Part shown: piece after piece, positions 446-53,258 of the stretch
How the letters are laid out: every line of letters starts with the position of its first letter
Numbering within the stretch: position 1 is the first letter of the stretch
NCBI RefSeq assembly: GCF_900115755.1
Contig: NZ_FOXQ01000004.1
Span: 186,001 to 250,000 of the forward strand
Length of the DNA: 64,000 bases
Origin: Parafilimonas terrae
Lineage (GTDB): Bacteria > Bacteroidota > Bacteroidia > Chitinophagales > Chitinophagaceae
Direction of reading: 5' to 3'
Program-made: the position numbers and the translations under genes
Notes under the pieces: model-generated
Database searches by the model: none
What the model was told of the DNA's origin: nothing
What the model saw: only the letters and a program-made list of their open reading frames with translations

Positions 446-3157
446 ATGACTTCTTCAGATATACGCCGGGCTTTTCTTGATTTTTTTAAAAATAAAGGGC
501 ACGAAATTGTTCCCTCTGCTCCCATCGTTATAAAAAACGACCCCACGCTCATGTTCACCAATGCGGGCATGAACCAGTTTAAAGATTATTTTCTCGGCAA
601 CAAACAGGCGCCTTATAAACGCGTTGCCGATACGCAAAAATGCCTTCGGGTAAGCGGTAAGCACAACGACCTGGAGGAAGTGGGCGTTGATACCTATCAC
701 CACACCATGTTTGAAATGCTGGGCAATTGGAGTTTTGGGGATTATTTTAAAGCCGAAGCCATTGCCTGGAGCTGGGAATTGCTGACGGAAGTGTATAAAA
801 TTGATAAAGACCGTTTATACGTTACCGTTTTTGAAGGCGATTCAGCAGAAGGACTGCCCAAAGACGATGAGGCTTTTAATGAATGGAAAAAACATATTGC
901 CGGAGAGCGCATTTTAATGGGCAATAAGAAAGATAATTTCTGGGAAATGGGCGATACCGGCCCCTGCGGCCCCTGCACCGAAATTCATTATGATGGCCGC
1001 AGCGATGAAGAAAGAAAAGCGGTTGACGGCAAAACTTTGGTGAATGCCGATAACCCGCAGGTTATTGAGATTTGGAATAATGTATTCATTCAATTCAACC
1101 GTTTAAAAGATGGCAGCCTTGAACCATTACCGCAGAAACATGTGGATACAGGAATGGGCTTTGAACGTTTGGTGCGTGTGCTGCAAGGCAAACAAAGTAA
1201 TTACGATACAGATGTTTTTACCGGTACAATCAATGCCATAGAAAACATTGTCAACAAAAAATATGATTACAGCGATAGTAAAGAAGCCGTTGCCTTTCGT
1301 GTGTTAAGTGACCATATTCGCGCTATCAGTTTTACAATTGCTGATGGGCAGTTGCCTTCCAATACCGGCGCCGGTTATGTTATAAGAAGAATTTTGCGCA
1401 GGGCTGTTCGTTATTATTATTCTTACCTGGATTATAAGCAGCCATTATTATTTCAATTGTTACCGGTAATTGCAAAACAGTTTGAACATGTTTTCCCTGA
1501 ATTGAAGAAGCAGGAAGATTTTGTAACAAAGGTCATAAAGGAAGAAGAAGATGCGTTCTTGAAAACATTAGAAAAAGGGATAAAAAAATTTGATGCTTAC
1601 ATTGAAGATTCTGAATATATACCCGACTACTTTTCAGAAGAAAATTCTACTAAAAAAGAAACCATTTTAAAAAACAACAAAATATTGGAAGGAGCCGATA
1701 AGAAAATTATTAATGGAGTATTTGCTTTTGAATTAAATGATACTTATGGTTTCCCAATCGATCTTACTGAATTAATGGCGAAAGAAAAAGGCTGGACTGT
1801 TGATATTGATGGTTTCAATCAGGCATTGCAGCAACAAAAGCACCGTTCCCGCGCAGCCACAGCAATTGATACGGAAGACTGGGTTATTGTGGGTGATGAA
1901 TTTTCACAAAACGAATTTGTTGGCTATGATTCACTTGAAGTAAAAACCAGAATTGTAAAGTACCGGAAAGTAAAGGCCAAAGGCAAAGAACAATACCAAA
2001 TTGTTTTGGAAGCCACACCTTTTTACGCCGAAAGCGGCGGACAGGTTGGAGATACAGGAGTTTTGGCTCCCCTCTCCACCTGTGGAGAGGGGCTGGGGGT
2101 GAGGGACACCAAAAAAGAAAACAACCTCATCATCCACTTTACGGATTCACTGCCAGAAAATATAAATGAAGAACTGATTGCCAAAGTTGATGTTACAAAA
2201 CGTAAACAAACCGCAGCCCATCACAGCGCCACGCATTTATTGCATGCGGCTTTGCGCCAGGTTTTAGGAACACATGTGCAGCAAAAAGGCAGTTTGGTAA
2301 ATGCAGAACACCTGCGTTTCGACTTTTCGCATTTCGCCAAAATGACTGATGAAGAAATTGCAAAAGCGGAAGCCATTGTGAATGAAAAAATTCGCGAAAA
2401 CATTCCGGTTATCATCAAAGAAATGCCAAAGGATGAAGCTTTGAAATTGGGCGCTATGGCGCTGTTTGGTGAGAAATATGGCGATATTGTTCGTGTTGTT
2501 ATTATCGACCCCAACTATTCTGTTGAGCTTTGCGGCGGCACGCATGTTGGCGCGACCGGTGAACTTGGTTTCTTTAAAATAAAACTGGAAACATCTGTTG
2601 CCGCAGGCGTTCGCCGCATTGAAGCGGTTGCTGGGAAACCGGCTGAAAACCTTATACAACAACAGTTTCAGCAACTGGCTTCTGTTCGCGAAGCCTTAAA
2701 AAATCCAAAAGATATTTTAAAAGCTATTGAAACTTTAAGCTCGGAAAATACAGAGCAGAAAAAACAAATAGAAAGTTTTGAAGCAAAACAATTGCAATCC
2801 ATCAAAAACGAATTGCTGCAAAAAGTGCAAACTATAAATGGCGTAAGCTTTATAGGCGAAAAGGTGGAAGTAAGCAATGCTGATGCGTTGAAGAAATTAT
2901 GTTTCGAACTTAAACTGCAGCTTGCTGATTATGTGGTTACACTTGTTTCCAACATCAGCGGTAAAGTATCCGTTGCCATCATCATAGATGATAAAATTGC
3001 TGCTGATAAAAATTTAGATGCCGGCAAAATCATCAAACAAAATATTGCTCCGTTAATTAAGGGCGGCGGCGGTGGCCAGAAAACATTAGCTACAGCCGGC
3101 GGGCAGGATGCAAGTAACCTGGATAAGGTAATTGAAGTAGTGAAGAATTTATTGTAA
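446..3157 (+). CDS. alaS: alanine--tRNA ligase
   Basis: Cytoplasmic class II aminoacyl-tRNA synthetase that charges tRNA-Ala and hydrolyses mischarged Ser/Gly. At 903 aa it is full length. The N-terminal catalytic core shows the TNAGMNQFKDYF and GNWSFGDYF stretches. The editing domain carries HSATH (residues 593-597) and CGGTH (696-700), the zinc/editing residues. The C-terminal C-Ala region has the GGGGGQ glycine run near the end. Oddity: about residues 540-555, just after ESGGQVGDTG, are encoded by a palindromic repeat element inserted in frame (see 2065-2106). A second lysine-rich insertion (about residues 385-420) precedes the segment DTYGFPIDLTELMA. The ATG at 446 gives the expected N-terminus. 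Confidence 0.98.
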   Translation: MTSSDIRRAFLDFFKNKGHEIVPSAPIVIKNDPTLMFTNAGMNQFKDYFLGNKQAPYKRVADTQKCLRVSGKHNDLEEVGVDTYHHTMFEMLGNWSFGDYFKAEAIAWSWELLTEVYKIDKDRLYVTVFEGDSAEGLPKDDEAFNEWKKHIAGERILMGNKKDNFWEMGDTGPCGPCTEIHYDGRSDEERKAVDGKTLVNADNPQVIEIWNNVFIQFNRLKDGSLEPLPQKHVDTGMGFERLVRVLQGKQSNYDTDVFTGTINAIENIVNKKYDYSDSKEAVAFRVLSDHIRAISFTIADGQLPSNTGAGYVIRRILRRAVRYYYSYLDYKQPLLFQLLPVIAKQFEHVFPELKKQEDFVTKVIKEEEDAFLKTLEKGIKKFDAYIEDSEYIPDYFSEENSTKKETILKNNKILEGADKKIINGVFAFELNDTYGFPIDLTELMAKEKGWTVDIDGFNQALQQQKHRSRAATAIDTEDWVIVGDEFSQNEFVGYDSLEVKTRIVKYRKVKAKGKEQYQIVLEATPFYAESGGQVGDTGVLAPLSTCGEGLGVRDTKKENNLIIHFTDSLPENINEELIAKVDVTKRKQTAAHHSATHLLHAALRQVLGTHVQQKGSLVNAEHLRFDFSHFAKMTDEEIAKAEAIVNEKIRENIPVIIKEMPKDEALKLGAMALFGEKYGDIVRVVIIDPNYSVELCGGTHVGATGELGFFKIKLETSVAAGVRRIEAVAGKPAENLIQQQFQQLASVREALKNPKDILKAIETLSSENTEQKKQIESFEAKQLQSIKNELLQKVQTINGVSFIGEKVEVSNADALKKLCFELKLQLADYVVTLVSNISGKVSVAIIIDDKIAADKNLDAGKIIKQNIAPLIKGGGGGQKTLATAGGQDASNLDKVIEVVKNLL
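2065..2106 (+). repeat. palindromic CCCTCTCC/GGAGAGGG element inside alaS
   Basis: A perfect 11-bp stem (2069-2079/2082-2092, CCCCTCTCCAC and its complement) is followed by GCTGGGGGTGAGG. This layout recurs in gaps at 44.18, 48.15, 50.70, 52.29 and 57.15 kb. Here it lies in frame in the alaS editing region and encodes residues resembling APLSTCGEGLGVRD. Confidence 0.8.
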
Positions 3158-13000: not shown

Positions 13001-13163
13001 AGTTCTCCGGATAAAACTTTTCATAAGCGGGGCCATGCTATAGTTTATGGATCATGTACCTGCATTTAGGATCTGTTTGAGTTATTTTTTTATACCAGTA
13101 AAAGTTTTGTGGAAGTCCTGAAACTTTTTCAGGCTTAATAATTATAAAAAAGTAAGAGTATTG

Positions 13164-13200
13164 GCTACAGATGCACAAATAAAATTTGTGCATCTGTAGC
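13164..13200. repeat. perfect 17-bp inverted repeat (GCTACAGATGCACAAAT)
   Basis: Arms 13164-13180 and 13184-13200 are exact complements around AAA. A close relative lies at 20525-20566, so this is a dispersed palindrome. Lying between convergent acpS and smpB, it may also work as a two-way terminator, although no U-tract follows directly. Confidence 0.7.
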
Positions 13201-13232
13201 TAAAAACAAAAATCTGCCAAATTGGAAACCCT

Positions 13233-16399: not shown

Positions 16400-19324
16400 A
16401 TGAGGTATAAAATTCTATTCATAGTTATTTTCCTGTTTACTGCTGCTGCTTCATTCAGCCAGGGCATTCCCGGCTCAATAAAAGGTGTTTTAAGGGATAG
16501 CACTGAACACCAGGCGCTGAGAAATGCAACCGTAAGTATTTTACACAGCGACTCTTCTTCATTTAAAGAATCCCTGTCTAAAGAAGACGGGAGCTTTTTA
16601 ATAACCAATATTCCCACCGGTGATTATATATTAAAAGTTACGTTCAGCAGTTATGAACCGCGTTTAACCAATTTTACCATTGACAGTATAAATGCAACAC
16701 TTAATGCCGGCATCATTTATATGCAGCCACATGCACATGAACTGGCTGAAGTGGTGGTGGAAACGCCTCCTATCATCATAAAAAAAGACACGTTTGAATT
16801 CGCTGCCAATGCTTTTGCCACAAAGCCCAATGCAACTGCAGAAGACCTTTTGAAAAAATTGCCTGGTGTGGACGTGGACAAAGATGGTAATATAAAAGCG
16901 CAGGGCGAATCGGTGCAGCGCGTGCTGGTAAATGGCAAGCGTTTTTTTGGTGATGATCCGCGTACGGCAACGCAAAATTTACCCAGTGATGTAATTGATA
17001 AAATACAGGTGTTTGACGACCAGAACGATCAAAGCCAGTTTACCGGTTTTGATGATGGCAACCGTGTGAAAACGATTAATATCGTTACCAAAAAAAATTC
17101 CGGCAGCTTCGGAAAGTTTGTTGCTGGCGCCGGCGATAAAGGCTTGTATAATGTGGCAGCAAATTACAGCATGTTTAAAGGCGATCAGCAGATAAGTTTT
17201 ATTGGCCAGTTGAATAATACAAACAAACAAAACTTTACACCGCAGGATATTTTCGGGTCTTCCGGCAGAGGTGGCTCCAGGGGTGGCGGAGGAGGATTTC
17301 GTGGTGGCGGAGGTGGTTCCAGGAGAGGTGGCGGGCAAATGCAGCAACTGCAAAGCCTTAATGCCAACAGCAATAATAATGGCCTGATAACCACAAGCGC
17401 TGCAGGTTTAAATTACCGTGATGTTTGGGGAAAGAATACCGAAGTGTATGGCAGCTATTTTTACAATAACCTGCTTACTGAAAAAGAACAAAACAGCCAG
17501 ACAGAAAATTTTGTTACAAATGATTCTTCCTTGTTTAATAACCAGGCACAATCTTCATCCAGGAGAAACGTAAATCAACGCCTGAATTTTAATATTGAAA
17601 CACAGTTTGATTCGTTAAACTCAATGATTATACGGCCTAACATTTCTTACCAGGAAACAAACAATAACAGCATTACGAAAACAACTACCACGCAGGGAAA
17701 AGCGGGCTTATTAAATAATGCAGATGCAACTTCCCTTAGTAATAATAAAGGTTATAACGGCAGTATTGATGCATTGTTCAGGCACCGCTTTAAAACAAAA
17801 GGCAGAACTTTTTCGCTGGGTTTAACAGGCTCCGGAAATACAAACGATGCCAATGGTAATAATTATTCGCTTACAGATTACTATAACAGCGGCATTGATT
17901 CATCTTACACCATTAACCAGCATTATGTTTCATCAACAAAAGCGCAGGGAATAAGTGCAACGGCATCTTACACAGAACCTATCGGTAAAAAATCGCTCGT
18001 TGAATTAAATTATAATTACAGTTATAATAAAAACACTTCCGATAAGGTAACTTACGATTATGACAGCGCTACTGAAAAGTTTACCACTATCGATTCGCTG
18101 CTCACCAATAATTATGAAAACACGTATTCATCAAACAGGGTTACATTAAACTACCGTTTTCAAACAGAGAAAATAAATTTCAGTGTGGGCAATGGCATAC
18201 AGTTTGGCAATCTTACCAGCATTAATAACACAAAAGACATTAATCTTACACAGCATTATACTAACCTGTATCCTACAGCCAATCTTACTTACAGGTTTAG
18301 CAGGACATCCAACCTGCGGTTCAATTATTCCGGCAGAACAAGCCAACCAAATGCTATGCAACTGCAGCCTGTGATTGATAACAGTGATCCTTTAAATGTA
18401 GAAATTGGTAATCCAAACCTGAAACAATCATTCACACATTCATTCAGAGCCTTATATAATAACTTCAGCTTTAACCGCGGTAACAATTTCAGCAGCGATG
18501 AAAATAATTTTCATAACATTTTTGCAACTATAAATGCAAGTTTCACAACTAACGATATTGTGGAAGCAGTTAAAAGAAAGAATGGAATTGATACGGTTAC
18601 ATATACCAACCTTAGCGGCGCCTATAATATTTCAGCATTTTTCAATTATGGTTTTCAGTTAAAAAAACCAAAATCTAATTTGAACTTCACAACGAATTTT
18701 ACTAACTCAAAAGATGCCAGTATCATAAACAATACTATAAACTATACAAACAATTATACAATTGGCGAAACAGTAAAATTCACCACCAACCTGAAGAAAA
18801 ATTTCGATATGAATTTTTCTGCAACGCCAACATATAATATAGTGCGTTATTCATTTCAGTCAGATCAGAGCGATAATTATTTTTCACAGAATTTAAGTGT
18901 AGGTGCTACTTATTATACCACTTCGGGCTGGATATTGGAAAGTGATTTTAATTATACAGCTTACAGCGGCAGGTCTGATGGATATAATACCGCGGTGCCT
19001 TTATGGAACGCTTCGTTTGCAAAACAGTTTTTAAAAGGCAAAGCTGGTGAATTACGTTTCAGCGTATATGATTTATTAAATCAGAATCAAAGCATAACAA
19101 GAACAGTTGAGCCTACTTATATACGCGATGTGCAAACAAAAGTGCTTACCCGTTATTTCATGCTTACATTTACTTATAACCTTCGCAATTTTTCAAAGGG
19201 GCAACAGCAAGAACAAAGAAGGTTGCCTGATTTCAGGCGCGATGGCAATATGCCGCCGCCACCTCCTGATGGCGGCGGCCCTCCTCCGGGCGGCGGTGGG
19301 CCTCCTCCCGGCGAGCCTTCATAA
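16400..19324 (+). CDS. outer-membrane beta-barrel / TonB-dependent receptor-like protein
   Basis: About 974 aa from ATG 16400 (the frame extends to a TTG at 16379). An N-terminal signal peptide (YKILFIVIFLFTAAASFSQG) is followed by a carboxypeptidase-regulatory-like domain (GVLRDSTEHQALRNATVSI, about residues 20-105), a plug-like domain (LKKLPGVDVDKDGNI, VLVNGKRFFGDD), then an Asn/Thr-rich beta-barrel. This is the 'outer membrane beta-barrel family 3' layout, without a SusD partner. Oddities: a Gly/Arg-rich insert (about residues 285-315, GGSRGGGGGFRGGGGGSRR) inside the barrel region and a C-terminal Pro/Gly tail (PPPPPDGGGPPPGGGG). The ligand is unknown. Confidence 0.85.
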   Translation: MRYKILFIVIFLFTAAASFSQGIPGSIKGVLRDSTEHQALRNATVSILHSDSSSFKESLSKEDGSFLITNIPTGDYILKVTFSSYEPRLTNFTIDSINATLNAGIIYMQPHAHELAEVVVETPPIIIKKDTFEFAANAFATKPNATAEDLLKKLPGVDVDKDGNIKAQGESVQRVLVNGKRFFGDDPRTATQNLPSDVIDKIQVFDDQNDQSQFTGFDDGNRVKTINIVTKKNSGSFGKFVAGAGDKGLYNVAANYSMFKGDQQISFIGQLNNTNKQNFTPQDIFGSSGRGGSRGGGGGFRGGGGGSRRGGGQMQQLQSLNANSNNNGLITTSAAGLNYRDVWGKNTEVYGSYFYNNLLTEKEQNSQTENFVTNDSSLFNNQAQSSSRRNVNQRLNFNIETQFDSLNSMIIRPNISYQETNNNSITKTTTTQGKAGLLNNADATSLSNNKGYNGSIDALFRHRFKTKGRTFSLGLTGSGNTNDANGNNYSLTDYYNSGIDSSYTINQHYVSSTKAQGISATASYTEPIGKKSLVELNYNYSYNKNTSDKVTYDYDSATEKFTTIDSLLTNNYENTYSSNRVTLNYRFQTEKINFSVGNGIQFGNLTSINNTKDINLTQHYTNLYPTANLTYRFSRTSNLRFNYSGRTSQPNAMQLQPVIDNSDPLNVEIGNPNLKQSFTHSFRALYNNFSFNRGNNFSSDENNFHNIFATINASFTTNDIVEAVKRKNGIDTVTYTNLSGAYNISAFFNYGFQLKKPKSNLNFTTNFTNSKDASIINNTINYTNNYTIGETVKFTTNLKKNFDMNFSATPTYNIVRYSFQSDQSDNYFSQNLSVGATYYTTSGWILESDFNYTAYSGRSDGYNTAVPLWNASFAKQFLKGKAGELRFSVYDLLNQNQSITRTVEPTYIRDVQTKVLTRYFMLTFTYNLRNFSKGQQQEQRRLPDFRRDGNMPPPPPDGGGPPPGGGGPPPGEPS

Positions 19325-20524: not shown

Positions 20525-20566
20525 TTGCCGCAGATGTACAAATAAAAATCTGTACATCTGTGGCAA
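20525..20566. repeat. inverted repeat related to that at 13164-13200
   Basis: Arms 20525-20540 (TTGCCGCAGATGTACA) and 20551-20566 are complementary except one G-T pair. The CAGATGYACA core and A-rich loop match the copy at 13.16 kb. It lies in the divergent gap of the esterase and GH2 genes. Confidence 0.65.
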
Positions 20567-33839: not shown

Positions 33840-34029
33840 ACTCAAATATCAAGGTTCATCTGCTGAAAAATCATTAGTACAAAAGTTTAATCAAGGCGTG
33901 TGCACGGATGTGTTTAAACCGACGAAGGAGGTTCGCGAAGGCCATAAAAAAATAAATATGATGCTGAGCAAATATCATCCGTGCTTGAATTTCTTTTGCT
34001 ACTTTCTTTTTTCAAGAAAAGAAAGTAAC
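33840..34029 (+). repeat. dispersed repeat copy B with terminal hairpin
   Basis: Similar to copies at 43892-44030 (minus) and 53129-53258 (minus): GCTGAAAAATCA, AATCAAGGCGTGTGCACGGATGTGTT, GTGCTTGAATTTCTTT, and a final hairpin (33998-34010/34017-34029, TACTTTCTTTT with loop TTCAAG). About 60 nt unique to this copy (33925-33975) interrupts the middle. Confidence 0.65.
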
Positions 34030-34053
34030 AAAAAACAAAAGCAGAGGTTTGAT

Positions 34054-44030: not shown

Positions 44031-44179
44031 CCCTGATGCTTAGGTGTAATAATGTATGTTATTTTCCATCATTTAATCATTGAATATGGTAAAATTTTAA
44101 CGGCCTTTATTACAACAGAAGCATCATAAATATTCAGGTTGCTAAAGTATAAATTATTATAACGTTGTTTGAAAAGGGG

Positions 44180-44219
44180 CATCCCTCTCCACAAGTGGAG
44201 AGGGAACGAGGATGAGGTA
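44180..44219 (+). repeat. CCCTCTCC/GGAGAGGG palindromic element
   Basis: Perfect 11-bp stem (44182-44192/44195-44205) followed by ACGAGGATGAGGT. The rest of the 354-nt gap 43887-44240 holds repeat copy C and AT-rich sequence only. Confidence 0.7.
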
Positions 44220-44240: not shown

Positions 44241-46547
44241 ATGAGATCATTTGTGACCACTGTAAAAATCTTGATTATCTGCACTGCGTTTTTAAGTTTA
44301 TTAAGTTGTAACAGCAACAATGGAAATGGCGGCAAGCCCGATTCACTGGCCATACGCAAAAGCATAGAAGATGCGTCGGTGCTTAAGCCCGCTGAGGCCA
44401 TTAAAAAAATGCACATTGAAGATGGCTTCGAAGTAAAACTGGTGGCGGAAGAACCCTTGATTGCTGCACCGGTGGCCATGAATTTTGATAACAAAGGCCG
44501 CTTATGGGTTGTAACCATGATGGATTATATGCCGGATACATCGGGCACGGGTGAAGATATGCCAACAGGCAAGGTGATGATATTAAGTGATACTAACGGC
44601 GATGGTGTTATGGATAGCAGTAAAGTGTTTTTAGACTCGCTGGTATTGCCGCGTGCTTTGTGTTTAATCGACGGCGGCATTCTCGTTGCCGAACCGCCAA
44701 AGCTTTGGTATTATGATATTAAAGATGATAAGCCCGTAAACAAAACGTTGGTTGACAGCAGCTATGCAGATGGCGGCAACGTAGAGCACCAGCCCAATGG
44801 TTTGCTGCGTGCGATGGATAACTGGATATACAATGCCAAAAGCGATGTGCGTTACCGGAAACAGGGTAATAAATGGCTGAAAGAAAAAACACATTTCCGC
44901 GGGCAGTGGGGCATTGCGCAGGATGATGAAGGAAGGTTGTTTTATAACACCAACTCAGAAAATTTATTGGGCGATTATTTTATGCCCGGCCTTGGCTCCG
45001 GCAATACCAACCAAAGAAAGGTGGCGGGTTATGTTGAGTCGATTATTAAAGACAACAGGACGTATCCTGTGCGGCCAACACCTGGTGTAAACCGCGGCTA
45101 TATGGAAGGCGTGCTTGACGATAGTTTGCGCCTCACCAATTTTACGGCTGCCTGCGGCCCTGTAATTTATAACGGCGGTTTATTTGATGAGGCTTATCAC
45201 GGCAATGCCTTTGTAGCCGAGCCTTCTGCCAATCTTATCAAAAGAAATATCTTAACGGATAAAGGTTATATTGTTGATGGAAAACAGGCATATCAAAACA
45301 AGGAATTTTTAGCCAGTGAAGATGAGCGTTTCAGGCCGGTGAATTTATATGTTGGCCCCGATGGCGCCATGTATATTATAGATATGTATCGCGGCATCAT
45401 TCAGCATAAAACTTATCTCACGCCTTATCTTAAAAATGAAATAAAGGAGAGAAAGCTTACCAATCCTTTAAACTGCGGGCGTATTTATAAAATAATTCCA
45501 AAAGGAGGTGACGCAAAAAATATTGTGTTCAACAATGACCCGCAGCAACTTGTTGAATTACTGAAAAACAAAAACGGCTGGGTGCGTAATGAAGCGCAGC
45601 AAATGATCATTGACAGTAACTATACTGCTGCATCGCCTGCACTGCATGAAATGCTGAAGTCAACAGATAATTTTATTCCCGTTGCACATGCATTATGGAC
45701 ATTGGAAGGCTTGCATGCATTACAGCCTGCGGATGTATTGCCTTTGCTGCAAAACAATAACTGGCTCATAAGAATGCAGGCATTAAGTGTATTGCCTTCT
45801 GTTATGAATAAAAATAATTACAACCAGTTTTTACCGCTGCTGCAGCAACTGGTGAACGATACGCTGGCCGCGCCTTATATTGGTTATATCATGCATAATA
45901 TGCAGCAGTATAATGCAGCCGCTGCCAAACAAATACTGATGCAGTTGACATCAAAATACGCAGCCAATAAATATGTTGCCGATGCGGTGATCAGCAATCT
46001 TGAGAATAAAGAAGAAAGCTTTTTGAAAGAGGTGGTAAAAATAAATGCTGATACAACAACAGTGTTTGCAAGGAGATTAAGAAAAGTAATTGATGATATT
46101 GCAAAAGCCAGGAGCCAGAGCAACCAGAAAAAGCTTGCCGCTTTATATCCAAGAGGGGCGCATATATTTACAACACTTTGCCAAACCTGCCATGGCCTTG
46201 ATGGCAACGGCGTTACAGCATTGGCGCCGCCGCTGAATAAATCAAACTGGGTGCAGGGCAACAAAAACCAGTTGATACCAATTGTGCTGTACGGGTTAAC
46301 AGGCCCTGTAAAAGTGGCGGATCATTTATATAAATCGCCGGAAATAAATGGCGATATGCCGGGCATCGGGTCGAACGATGAATATAATGATGAAGATATT
46401 GCGCAGGTATTAAACTACATTCGTAACTCATGGAATAATAAAGTTTCCGGTTCTGCCATTACAGCAAAAGATATTTCTGATACAAGAAAGAAATATGAAG
46501 GCAGGCAGAAGACGTTTACAATGGAAGAACTGGAAGGGATTAAGTAG
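44241..46547 (+). CDS. PVC-type haem-binding CxxCH lipoprotein (membrane-bound dehydrogenase domain)
   Basis: 768-aa lipoprotein (signal VKILIICTAFLSLLSC). Residues about 45-430 form a beta-propeller of the 'membrane-bound dehydrogenase / DUF7133' type (FDNKGRLWVVTMMDYMPD, VGPDGAMYIIDMYRG). Residues about 440-620 are helical HEAT-like repeats. The C-terminus is a cytochrome c with C647-Q-T-C650-H651 and a Met ligand candidate near GDMPGIG. These proteins likely accept electrons from a periplasmic sugar oxidation. It is co-directional with the Gfo/Idh genes of the locus. Confidence 0.87.
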   Translation: MRSFVTTVKILIICTAFLSLLSCNSNNGNGGKPDSLAIRKSIEDASVLKPAEAIKKMHIEDGFEVKLVAEEPLIAAPVAMNFDNKGRLWVVTMMDYMPDTSGTGEDMPTGKVMILSDTNGDGVMDSSKVFLDSLVLPRALCLIDGGILVAEPPKLWYYDIKDDKPVNKTLVDSSYADGGNVEHQPNGLLRAMDNWIYNAKSDVRYRKQGNKWLKEKTHFRGQWGIAQDDEGRLFYNTNSENLLGDYFMPGLGSGNTNQRKVAGYVESIIKDNRTYPVRPTPGVNRGYMEGVLDDSLRLTNFTAACGPVIYNGGLFDEAYHGNAFVAEPSANLIKRNILTDKGYIVDGKQAYQNKEFLASEDERFRPVNLYVGPDGAMYIIDMYRGIIQHKTYLTPYLKNEIKERKLTNPLNCGRIYKIIPKGGDAKNIVFNNDPQQLVELLKNKNGWVRNEAQQMIIDSNYTAASPALHEMLKSTDNFIPVAHALWTLEGLHALQPADVLPLLQNNNWLIRMQALSVLPSVMNKNNYNQFLPLLQQLVNDTLAAPYIGYIMHNMQQYNAAAAKQILMQLTSKYAANKYVADAVISNLENKEESFLKEVVKINADTTTVFARRLRKVIDDIAKARSQSNQKKLAALYPRGAHIFTTLCQTCHGLDGNGVTALAPPLNKSNWVQGNKNQLIPIVLYGLTGPVKVADHLYKSPEINGDMPGIGSNDEYNDEDIAQVLNYIRNSWNNKVSGSAITAKDISDTRKKYEGRQKTFTMEELEGIK

Positions 46548-46549
46548 AA

Positions 46550-46800
46550 GTTGATTGGTTGAAGGGTGAGAAATGGGAATTTGGAATAAGGAATTGGTAA
46601 GCAGGAAAGTTGATTCGTTGAGAGGTTGATTGGTTGAAGGGTGAGAAACGGGAATTTGGAATAAGGAATTGGAAAGAAGGAAAGTTGATTGGTTGAGAGG
46701 TTGATTGGTTGAAGGGTGAGAAACGGGAATTTGGAATAAGGAATTGGAAAGAAGGAAAGTTGATTGGTTGAGAAGTTGATTAGTTGAATGGGAAGAAACT
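46550..46800 (+). repeat. 75-bp tandem repeat, 3 full copies plus part
   Basis: Copies begin at 46550, 46625 and 46700 with the same GTTGATTGGTTG start; a partial fourth begins at 46775. Copies 2 and 3 are nearly identical. After it come short heptamer-like strings (GTGAACAAGTGAACACGTG; AGCTGATAGCTGATAGCTC) up to 46890. The 345-nt gap has no credible gene. Confidence 0.9.
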
Positions 46801-50723: not shown

Positions 50724-50728
50724 TAAAA

Positions 50729-50826
50729 AGGCAGGCTTATTACATCGCACCGCTACAACCGCCTACTCTTGCTGCATTCCTGCCCTGGGAGGGTTCAGCA
50801 GGAGCTGGTCGTGTAAGACCTGCCGG
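50729..50826 (-). ncRNA. ffs: signal recognition particle RNA (small bacterial type)
   Basis: On the minus strand the ~98-nt region pairs end to end (GGCCGGCAGGTCTTACA with TGTAATAAGCCTGCC). It contains the SRP RNA apical core CCCAGGGCAGGAATGCAGCA (tetraloop GGAA-type loop and the Ffh-binding asymmetric bulge AGCA). A T-rich run (TTTTTATTTT) follows the 3' end. An exact TACATTTG -7 element at 50830-50837 puts the transcription start near 50824. The RNA forms the particle with Ffh to target membrane proteins. Confidence 0.9.
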
Positions 50827-50829
50827 CCG

Positions 50830-50837
50830 CAAATGTA
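50830..50837 (-). promoter_or_regulatory. -7 element TACATTTG of the SRP RNA gene
   Basis: Matches TAnnTTTG on the minus strand and ends 6 nt before the predicted 5' end of the SRP RNA. No -33 box at the usual distance is clear. Confidence 0.65.
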
Positions 50838-52999: not shown

Positions 53000-53128
53000 G
53001 TGTATGTATTTTGATGTTAAAAATTATATGGGAAACAGTAGGGTTGCTGATTTATGTGCACCTTTATTTTTCCATCTTACTAAGATTTCTTTCTGTACCT
53101 TTTTCATTTGAATAACAATCAGCTTATT

Positions 53129-53258
53129 GTTACTTTCTTTTCTTGAAAAAAGAAAGTAACCAAAGAAATTCAAGCACAGATGATCTTTCAACACATCCGC
53201 GCACATGCCTTGATTTGGCTTTTGTGCTGCTGATTCTTCGGCTGTCATGCCTTGATAT
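53129..53258 (-). repeat. dispersed repeat copy A with 13-bp hairpin
   Basis: Minus-strand reading: ATCAAGGCATGACAGCCGAA, ATCAGCAGCACAAAAGCCAA, GATGTGTTGAAAGATCA, GTGCTTGAATTTCTTTG, then a perfect 13-bp hairpin (53129-53141/53148-53160, GTTACTTTCTTTT with loop CTTGAA). Related copies are at 33.84 and 43.89 kb. Confidence 0.7.

Follow-up and report, generated by a model that had tools for sequence, protein, structure and literature searches.

An in-frame REP-like palindromic element in the alaS gene of Parafilimonas terrae and the association of its family with DUF559 endonucleases

Repetitive extragenic palindromes (REPs) carrying GTAG or CGTC tags, intragenic ones included, have been described by Di Nocera et al. 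(2013; PMC3733652). In the parts of that work that bear on the present case, REPs are palindromes of 20-40 bp, present in many copies and mostly intergenic, some of which lie in frame within genes, including those of tRNA synthetases; the same site may be hit in related genes, as in recB of Xanthomonas. GTAG REPs are linked to REP-associated tyrosine transposases (RAYTs, of the IS200/IS605 type), and in REPtrons a small enzyme of mobility type has palindromes on its flanks, which are also found alone in the genome. For REPs devoid of a RAYT no mover is known, as stated there for the CGTC class. In Rickettsia, palindromic repeats of about 150 bp (RPEs) are found in frame within unrelated coding genes and are translated, according to the relevant part of PMC10969869. 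The present study deals with a stretch of 64,000 nucleotides from Parafilimonas terrae (Bacteroidota; contig NZ_FOXQ01000004.1, positions 186,001 to 250,000), hereafter called the window, in which a palindromic element of about 40 bp is read in frame within alaS, the gene of alanyl-tRNA synthetase (AlaRS). The alaS copy by itself is a fresh example of the known REP kind. Palindromes of its family also accompany endonuclease domains of the DUF559 family, and we propose, with a probability of about 0.68, that the alaS segment would be a REP-like unit, itself non-autonomous, that a DUF559 nuclease moves and that a permissive hairpin tolerates.

The host gene is the single AlaRS match in the whole genome under study (G000; other genomes and loci are designated below by G and L numbers). 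The features of the gene and of the element are the following.

446..3157, + strand: alaS, alanine--tRNA ligase, 903 aa, host gene (NCBIfam alaS, E=3.7e-270)
2065..2104, + strand: REP-like palindromic element, in frame, encoding APLSTCGEGLGVR in the predicted editing-domain hairpin
2069..2092, no strand: perfect palindrome, 11-bp arms, 2-nt centre, CTCCAC..GTGGAG core type
2093..2104, + strand: one-sided element tail CTGGGGGTGAGG, supplying residues LGVR that adjoin the conserved DTKKEN

The DNA of the element, GGCTCCCCTCTCCACCTGTGGAGAGGGGCTGGGGGTGAGG, is made of the palindrome followed by a tail on one side only, GGGGGTGAGG. Its translation comes immediately after ESGGQVGDTGVL and is located between the motifs GGQVGDTG and DTKKEN of the AlaRS editing domain, where the alternating strand pattern of the residues suggests a beta-hairpin. 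A sequence-only reading of the window had placed a palindromic element in frame within alaS, and the perfect palindrome at 2069-2092 in the 446-3157 frame bears this out. Because a stop is held by only one of its six reading frames, the element is easily tolerated as coding DNA.

The element is dispersed. In the window, the pattern TCTCC N0-12 GGAGA occurs four times, for 0.05 expected, and three copies are found besides that of alaS.

44178..44217, + strand: family copy, CTCCAC..GTGGAG core type, in no open frame of at least 100 aa
48149..48181, + strand: family copy, TTT core type, in no open frame of at least 100 aa
57171..57202, + strand: family copy, TTT core type, at the very start of two stop-to-stop frames and probably upstream of the real gene start

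At least five other copies had been announced by the sequence-only reading, a number that is too high; weaker matches at 17322, 29428 and 40388 have no second arm on reading and were rejected. The same reading held that the palindrome and its tail are both shared with the family. This is correct for the core, but the exact 13-mer tail GCTGGGGGTGAGG is present once in the window and variant tails are found in the other copies. Over the whole genome, 17 copies were collected with a pattern combining core and tail, and none with the reversed pattern used as a control. Copies were counted by patterns rather than with a covariance model, since alignment misplaced the left arms of long-loop copies. 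One of the first 13 palindromes (L018), which resembles a tRNA-side terminator, was excluded. Near-identical copies occur in unrelated genes, and six of the 17 are in frame within coding genes identified by profile: three in leuS and one each in alaS, rtcB and pyrC, the frame of the last exceeding its closest model by 22 residues over the aligned length. The sequence-only reading had suggested scanning the genome for the element in other genes, and such copies are indeed present. Neither the GTAG and CGTC tags nor their complements are present in 14 aligned copies. No second tail was found at the 17 genomic copies when the 120 bases around each were scanned for CCTCA[CT]C; an extra match in L172 is host alaS sequence.

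Comparison with related AlaRS genes shows what the element has done to its host. AlaRS was searched in G000 and 58 relatives, with a match in 55 of the 59 genomes; 30 loci were fetched and 29 parsed (G000 and 28 relatives), the unparsed L057 being excluded from the hairpin count. In 24 of the 28 relatives, 12 residues separate the two motifs, and 13 do so in another one; the number rises to 15 in G000, to 18 in its congener G003 and to 17 in G019, which belongs to another genus. At the site of the element, 25 of the 28 relatives have 12-13 unrelated residues. G003 and G019 carry family copies that begin at the same codon as that of G000, the G019 copy being decayed. Hence the relatives do not share the G000 residues in a form encoded without the palindrome, and there is good support for a dispersed palindromic element having inserted into alaS. 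Because the hairpin has 12 residues in 24 of the 28 relatives and 15 in G000, the element has replaced about ten ancestral residues, most of the hairpin, for a net gain of three, and has not added about 14 residues as first thought. The archaeal AlaRS structures 2ZZE and 2ZTG likewise align with three residues fewer. In G003, the residues SLVV that follow the element still resemble the ancestral second strand; they are gone in G000, where LGVR abuts DTKKEN. The core types also differ, CCAC..GTGG in G000 and TTT in G003, which is compatible with a single ancestral insertion followed by exchange as well as with independent hits. The G005 segment has 15 residues, and 15 of its 42 bases match the element for 8.2 expected (63 of 10,000 shuffles as high), which is suggestive only of a decayed copy.

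The sequence of the AlaRS hairpin is variable among relatives. In G002 alaS (L034), as at leuS site A in L138 and L140, variable hairpins are built of short tandem-like units (AATTGACAATTGACAATGG; TTCAAAATTCAAAATTCAAA); the unit AATTGACAATTGACAATGG of the alaS hairpin has no dispersed copy in six genomes with up to 3 mismatches. A second repeat family (AATTGACAATTG...) considered for this same hairpin is not supported, as the G002 sequence has no other copy under the same conditions.

The most informative copies are located in leuS of G000 (C21:134272-137766; L025/L133), about 50 kb upstream of the window. This gene contains three in-frame palindromes and a nested DUF559 domain (Pfam PF04480). 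Two of the copies, of TTT/AAA core type, flank the DUF559 domain with their tails pointing outward (CCTCACC ... GGTGAGG), all within one leucyl-tRNA synthetase (LeuRS) frame of 1165 aa; about 31 and 27 residues of the insert flank DUF559 on its two sides. Between G000 and G003, dN/dS is 0.084 for the nested domain and 0.094 for its host (Nei-Gojobori, with near-saturated synonymous sites), values that indicate constraint on the nested domain. In the inserts of seven host proteins no Hint splicing domain was detected (Pfam, E<=1e-5), the only domains seen being DUF559 and an overlapping MTES_1575 match below cut-off. Concerning intron RNA, no Rfam match reached the gathering score in L025, L130 and L131, and the insert is an open frame throughout. 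The insert is apparently kept in the host protein.

The DUF559 profile matches 3HRL, an endonuclease-like protein (E=1.2e-34), and 3R3P, a mobile intron protein (E=2e-5) that we take to be I-Bth0305I; toxin-subunit matches, at E values of at least 0.17, were taken as chance. Among 22 sequences, the invariant columns are E, W, Q, DF, C, E, DG, H, D, R and N. A DUF559 match is found in 75 of 147 genomes of the family, weak Vsr-like matches included, and among the 123 strongest matches listed, 61 belong to open frames of at least 250 aa. We analysed 69 loci, made of 29 best matches and 40 chosen stretches, 37 of the latter picked for a long open frame; the resulting split into 60 nested and 12 free domains is therefore no census. 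In LeuRS, DUF559 is nested at two hairpins, before VYTTRPDT and before TMPGYAGS. Further hosts are AroC, MetH (two sites), MetRS, CinA, adenine deaminase, IspG (in a relative, L113) and IcmF, and DUF559 also shares an open frame with ArgB, ThrB and HisA, on their upstream side. LeuRS, AroC, MetH, CinA, adenine deaminase, IspG and IcmF were checked by profile, the other hosts by reading the sequence. The IspG gene of G000 itself (L026, C32:420500-424500) holds NSLSSGEGREEAAFPLFEG, which looks like a decayed copy of the element; a Vsr-like gene and a cytosine methylase gene come after it.

Association of DUF559 with palindromes was assessed on 72 distinct domains in the 69 loci, by looking for a perfect-arm palindrome within 200 bp. 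Such a palindrome is present on the left of 50 of the 72 domains, on the right of 43, on either side of 56 and on both sides of 37, whereas control windows at 900-1100 bp have one in 2 of 68 cases on the left and 7 of 66 on the right. For the 60 domains in frames of at least 250 aa, the counts are 42 on the left and 33 on the right, compared with 0 of 57 and 6 of 55 in the far windows; counting nested domains only therefore largely removes the bias that hairpin-rich intergenic DNA would bring. Among 98 near palindromes the left arm is pyrimidine-rich in 92, for 5 of 31 hairpins of AlaRS loci; in the latter loci, 25 of 526 windows 200 bases long contain a hairpin. Within a locus, the palindromes on the two sides are alike (37 pairs; 0 of 5000 permutations as high). 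Furthermore, DUF559 identity correlates with palindrome similarity (r=0.374 over 56 domains, 0 of 2000 permutations as high), including when only pairs at different host sites are retained, free-standing genes being counted as different (r=0.279, 0 of 2000 permutations). Because of this correlation, which also holds between different host sites, nuclease and palindrome may be read as travelling together from site to site.

Mobility was examined on the DUF559 tree (72 rows, 124 columns) and in the leuS genes of the genus. Host sites are clustered on the tree, with 25 changes for a mean of 50.9 after shuffling, and clustering is clear for LeuRS site A, MetH, IcmF, CinA and ArgB. LeuRS site A itself requires six changes, gains or losses, at least three of which are forced by well-supported branches. 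At leuS site B, G000, G003 and G005 have similar units (72-76% identical) and G004 is empty. G007 has a different unit at this site, 48-53% identical to those of G000, G003 and G005 and 71% identical to that of G093. The palindrome that ends this unit of G007 is of the CCAC..GTGG type, as is that of the alaS element. Hence the core type of the alaS copy, CTCCACnnGTGGAG, fits the DUF559 lineage of the leuS gene of the congener G007 and not the lineage now present in G000.

The association extends beyond Bacteroidota. When a plasmid collection was queried with a rhizobial DUF559 (L132), 45 records were obtained, from which 19 loci were fetched after exclusion of pathogen records and near-duplicates. 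A palindrome lies within 200 bp in 18 of these 19 named loci, for 3 of 19 far windows; the miss is a Thermoactinomyces locus and the 18 positive ones belong to Pseudomonadota, Deinococcota and Cyanobacteriota. The DUF559 of Pseudanabaena galeata has palindromes on both sides and lies nested within a protein of 1621 aa that also carries an Eco57I-type methylase domain. Two further arrangements were noticed in this collection. In four Deinococcus plasmids (L182, L185, L191, L198) a DUF559 gene is near hpaB, with neighbours that differ as if it had moved locally, and in a Sphingomonas plasmid (L187) sufB and sufC have a DUF559 gene between them, bordered on each side by matching palindromes.

Considering these data, the following scenario may be envisaged. 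A REP-like mobile palindrome of about 40 bp, with a one-sided GGGGTGAGG tail, would have landed in the tip of the variable AlaRS editing-domain hairpin. The copy stayed open in frame and, as comparison with relatives shows, now encodes most of the hairpin, the ancestral turn having been lost. It would be the non-autonomous partner of units made of a palindrome, a DUF559 gene and a second palindrome. Such units, whose association and nesting are shown by the data above, occupy hairpins and loops of housekeeping genes in frame and have no splicing domain. From these patterns we infer that DUF559 is the mover of the palindromes. The nuclease would recognise its own type of palindrome and cut at or near palindromes or their targets, and repair would copy either the palindrome or the whole palindrome-nuclease-palindrome unit into new or homologous sites. 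In essential genes, the survivors would be only those landings that are in frame and in permissive loops. Loss of the element would then be difficult, since a deletion would have to preserve the frame as well. It can further be imagined, at even odds in our estimate, that DUF559 proteins are the mobility enzymes of RAYT-less, REP-like palindromes spanning several phyla, that the composite units are unspliced, translated homing elements of essential-enzyme hairpins and that lone palindromes are their non-autonomous offspring.

Other explanations have to be weighed. The REP could be moved by a RAYT, as GTAG REPs would be from their link to RAYTs (PMC3733652), DUF559 being a passenger. G000 indeed has four Y1_Tnp matches, three of them above cut-off. 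However, the element is absent around all four (1.3-1.9 kb on either side, in G000 only), it has no GTAG tag and its palindrome type tracks the DUF559 sequence. A RAYT as the mover thus seems quite unlikely. It might also be proposed that the lone alaS palindrome is the scar of a former palindrome-DUF559-palindrome unit that lost its nuclease. Comparable leuS hairpins do hold DUF559 units with the same palindromes and the alaS core type fits the DUF559 lineage of G007. In this case, a tail would be expected on either side after recombination between the cores, yet none of the 17 genomic copies is double-tailed, and an AlaRS motif is found in 0 of 74 DUF559-bearing frames of the 69 fetched loci; a scar is an improbable origin.

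The idea that the palindromes are ordinary coding or regulatory hairpins, for instance terminators or codon-usage accidents, arisen in place in a fast-evolving loop could draw on the variability of the AlaRS hairpin and on the unrelated terminator-like palindrome (L018) caught by our first pattern. It is largely refuted because of the copy number and the shared tail, 17 copies having a common core and tail while the reversed-pattern control gives none. In addition, the hairpin keeps a length of 12 in 24 of 28 relatives and departs from it in the carriers, and near-identical copies lie in unrelated genes. We regard this origin as very improbable. Finally, co-occurrence of DUF559 with palindromes could result from larger unrelated mobile elements or from recombination between shared repeats, the role of the nuclease being a Vsr-like repair. 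In Caulobacter, VsrA, of the same DUF559 domain family, is described as a predicted mismatch-repair endonuclease; in the part of PMC12907096 concerned it acts with a cytosine methylase and, where this methylase is lacking, is linked to a DNA damage response. The main text of that paper nowhere contains the word palindrom-. On the other side, no Pfam domain other than DUF559 was found in the inserts of the seven host proteins, and the units recur at separate sites in separate genes, where they co-vary with their own palindromes. An unrelated carrier or a repair role is thus unlikely.

Several points weigh against a non-autonomous unit moved by DUF559. Movement and cleavage by DUF559 are inferred, not observed. 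The single-copy element has one tail whereas the composite unit has two. Sixteen of the 72 domains have no perfect-arm palindrome on either side, and 14 of these 16 are in frames of at least 250 aa, including all four ArgB-type fusions. DUF559 genes that stand free are located in intergenic DNA, which is richer in hairpins. Host-site clustering is weak for AroC and absent for adenine deaminase. G000 itself has one strong DUF559 besides a Vsr-like gene, and the palindromes flanking this DUF559 belong to the other core type. Empty leuS alleles, even the closest, are too diverged for an exact target, or a target-site duplication of the MITE or transposon kind, to be read, and dN/dS between G000 and G005 is saturated. 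The architecture is not uniform either, since the tails of the Mesorhizobium locus L132 seem to point inward, unlike those in leuS.

It is useful to come back to the described systems. Compared with the REPs of Di Nocera et al., the alaS family has neither tag, as seen in 14 copies, has a tail of its own and is tied to DUF559 rather than to a RAYT. The likeness to Rickettsia elements proposed by the sequence-only reading holds for their behaviour, in-frame residence in unrelated genes, and fails for their size, for the CGTC tag reported in R. conorii elements, which is absent here, and for the tie to DUF559. The elements studied here, from Bacteroidota, are set apart from RPEs, on description, by their nuclease-associated form. 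In the REPtron-like units found here, the enzyme is an endonuclease of the PD-(D/E)XK/Vsr-like type, and many of the units form part of the reading frame of a host enzyme. EDxHD homing endonucleases such as I-Bth0305I, in the portion of PMC3943268 considered, are alike in having a nuclease domain related at profile level, insertion in conserved genes, a patchy distribution and site-clustered lineages. They differ, like inteins and introns, in that the present units have no Hint domain or intron, have palindromic ends and are apparently retained in the protein. A DUF559-containing gene is listed among intein genes of Thermosynechococcus in the part of PMC9403480 concerned. In the open-licence PMC literature searched, seen in part, we found neither a link between DUF559 and REPs nor unspliced in-frame DUF559 units in essential genes.

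Other features of the window may be recorded. Another palindrome has two copies, at 13161-13203 and 20525-20566 (CAGATGnACAAAT..ATnTGTnCATCTG), and possibly represents a second REP-like family. A palindromic repeat, TACTTTCTTTT..GAAAAGAAAGTA, is also present twice, at 33994-34033 and 53127-53164. Direct repeats with a 75-nt spacing extend over 46546-46799, with three overlapping 104-nt copies that are 90-95% identical. A Bacteroidales small SRP RNA is located at 50725-50832 on the minus strand (94.7 bits).

If mobility of these palindromes indeed depends on DUF559, parts of essential enzymes would be built from mobile DNA. The DUF559 link names a candidate enzyme for such movement, together with matched palindrome substrates and with hosts that are naturally empty or filled. 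It also suggests a route by which selfish elements may enter essential genes without splicing: insertion into a tolerant hairpin, in frame, with constrained loss. DUF559, which is labelled in Pfam as a domain of unknown function, would thereby gain a functional hypothesis in at least four phyla, Bacteroidota, Pseudomonadota, Deinococcota and Cyanobacteriota.

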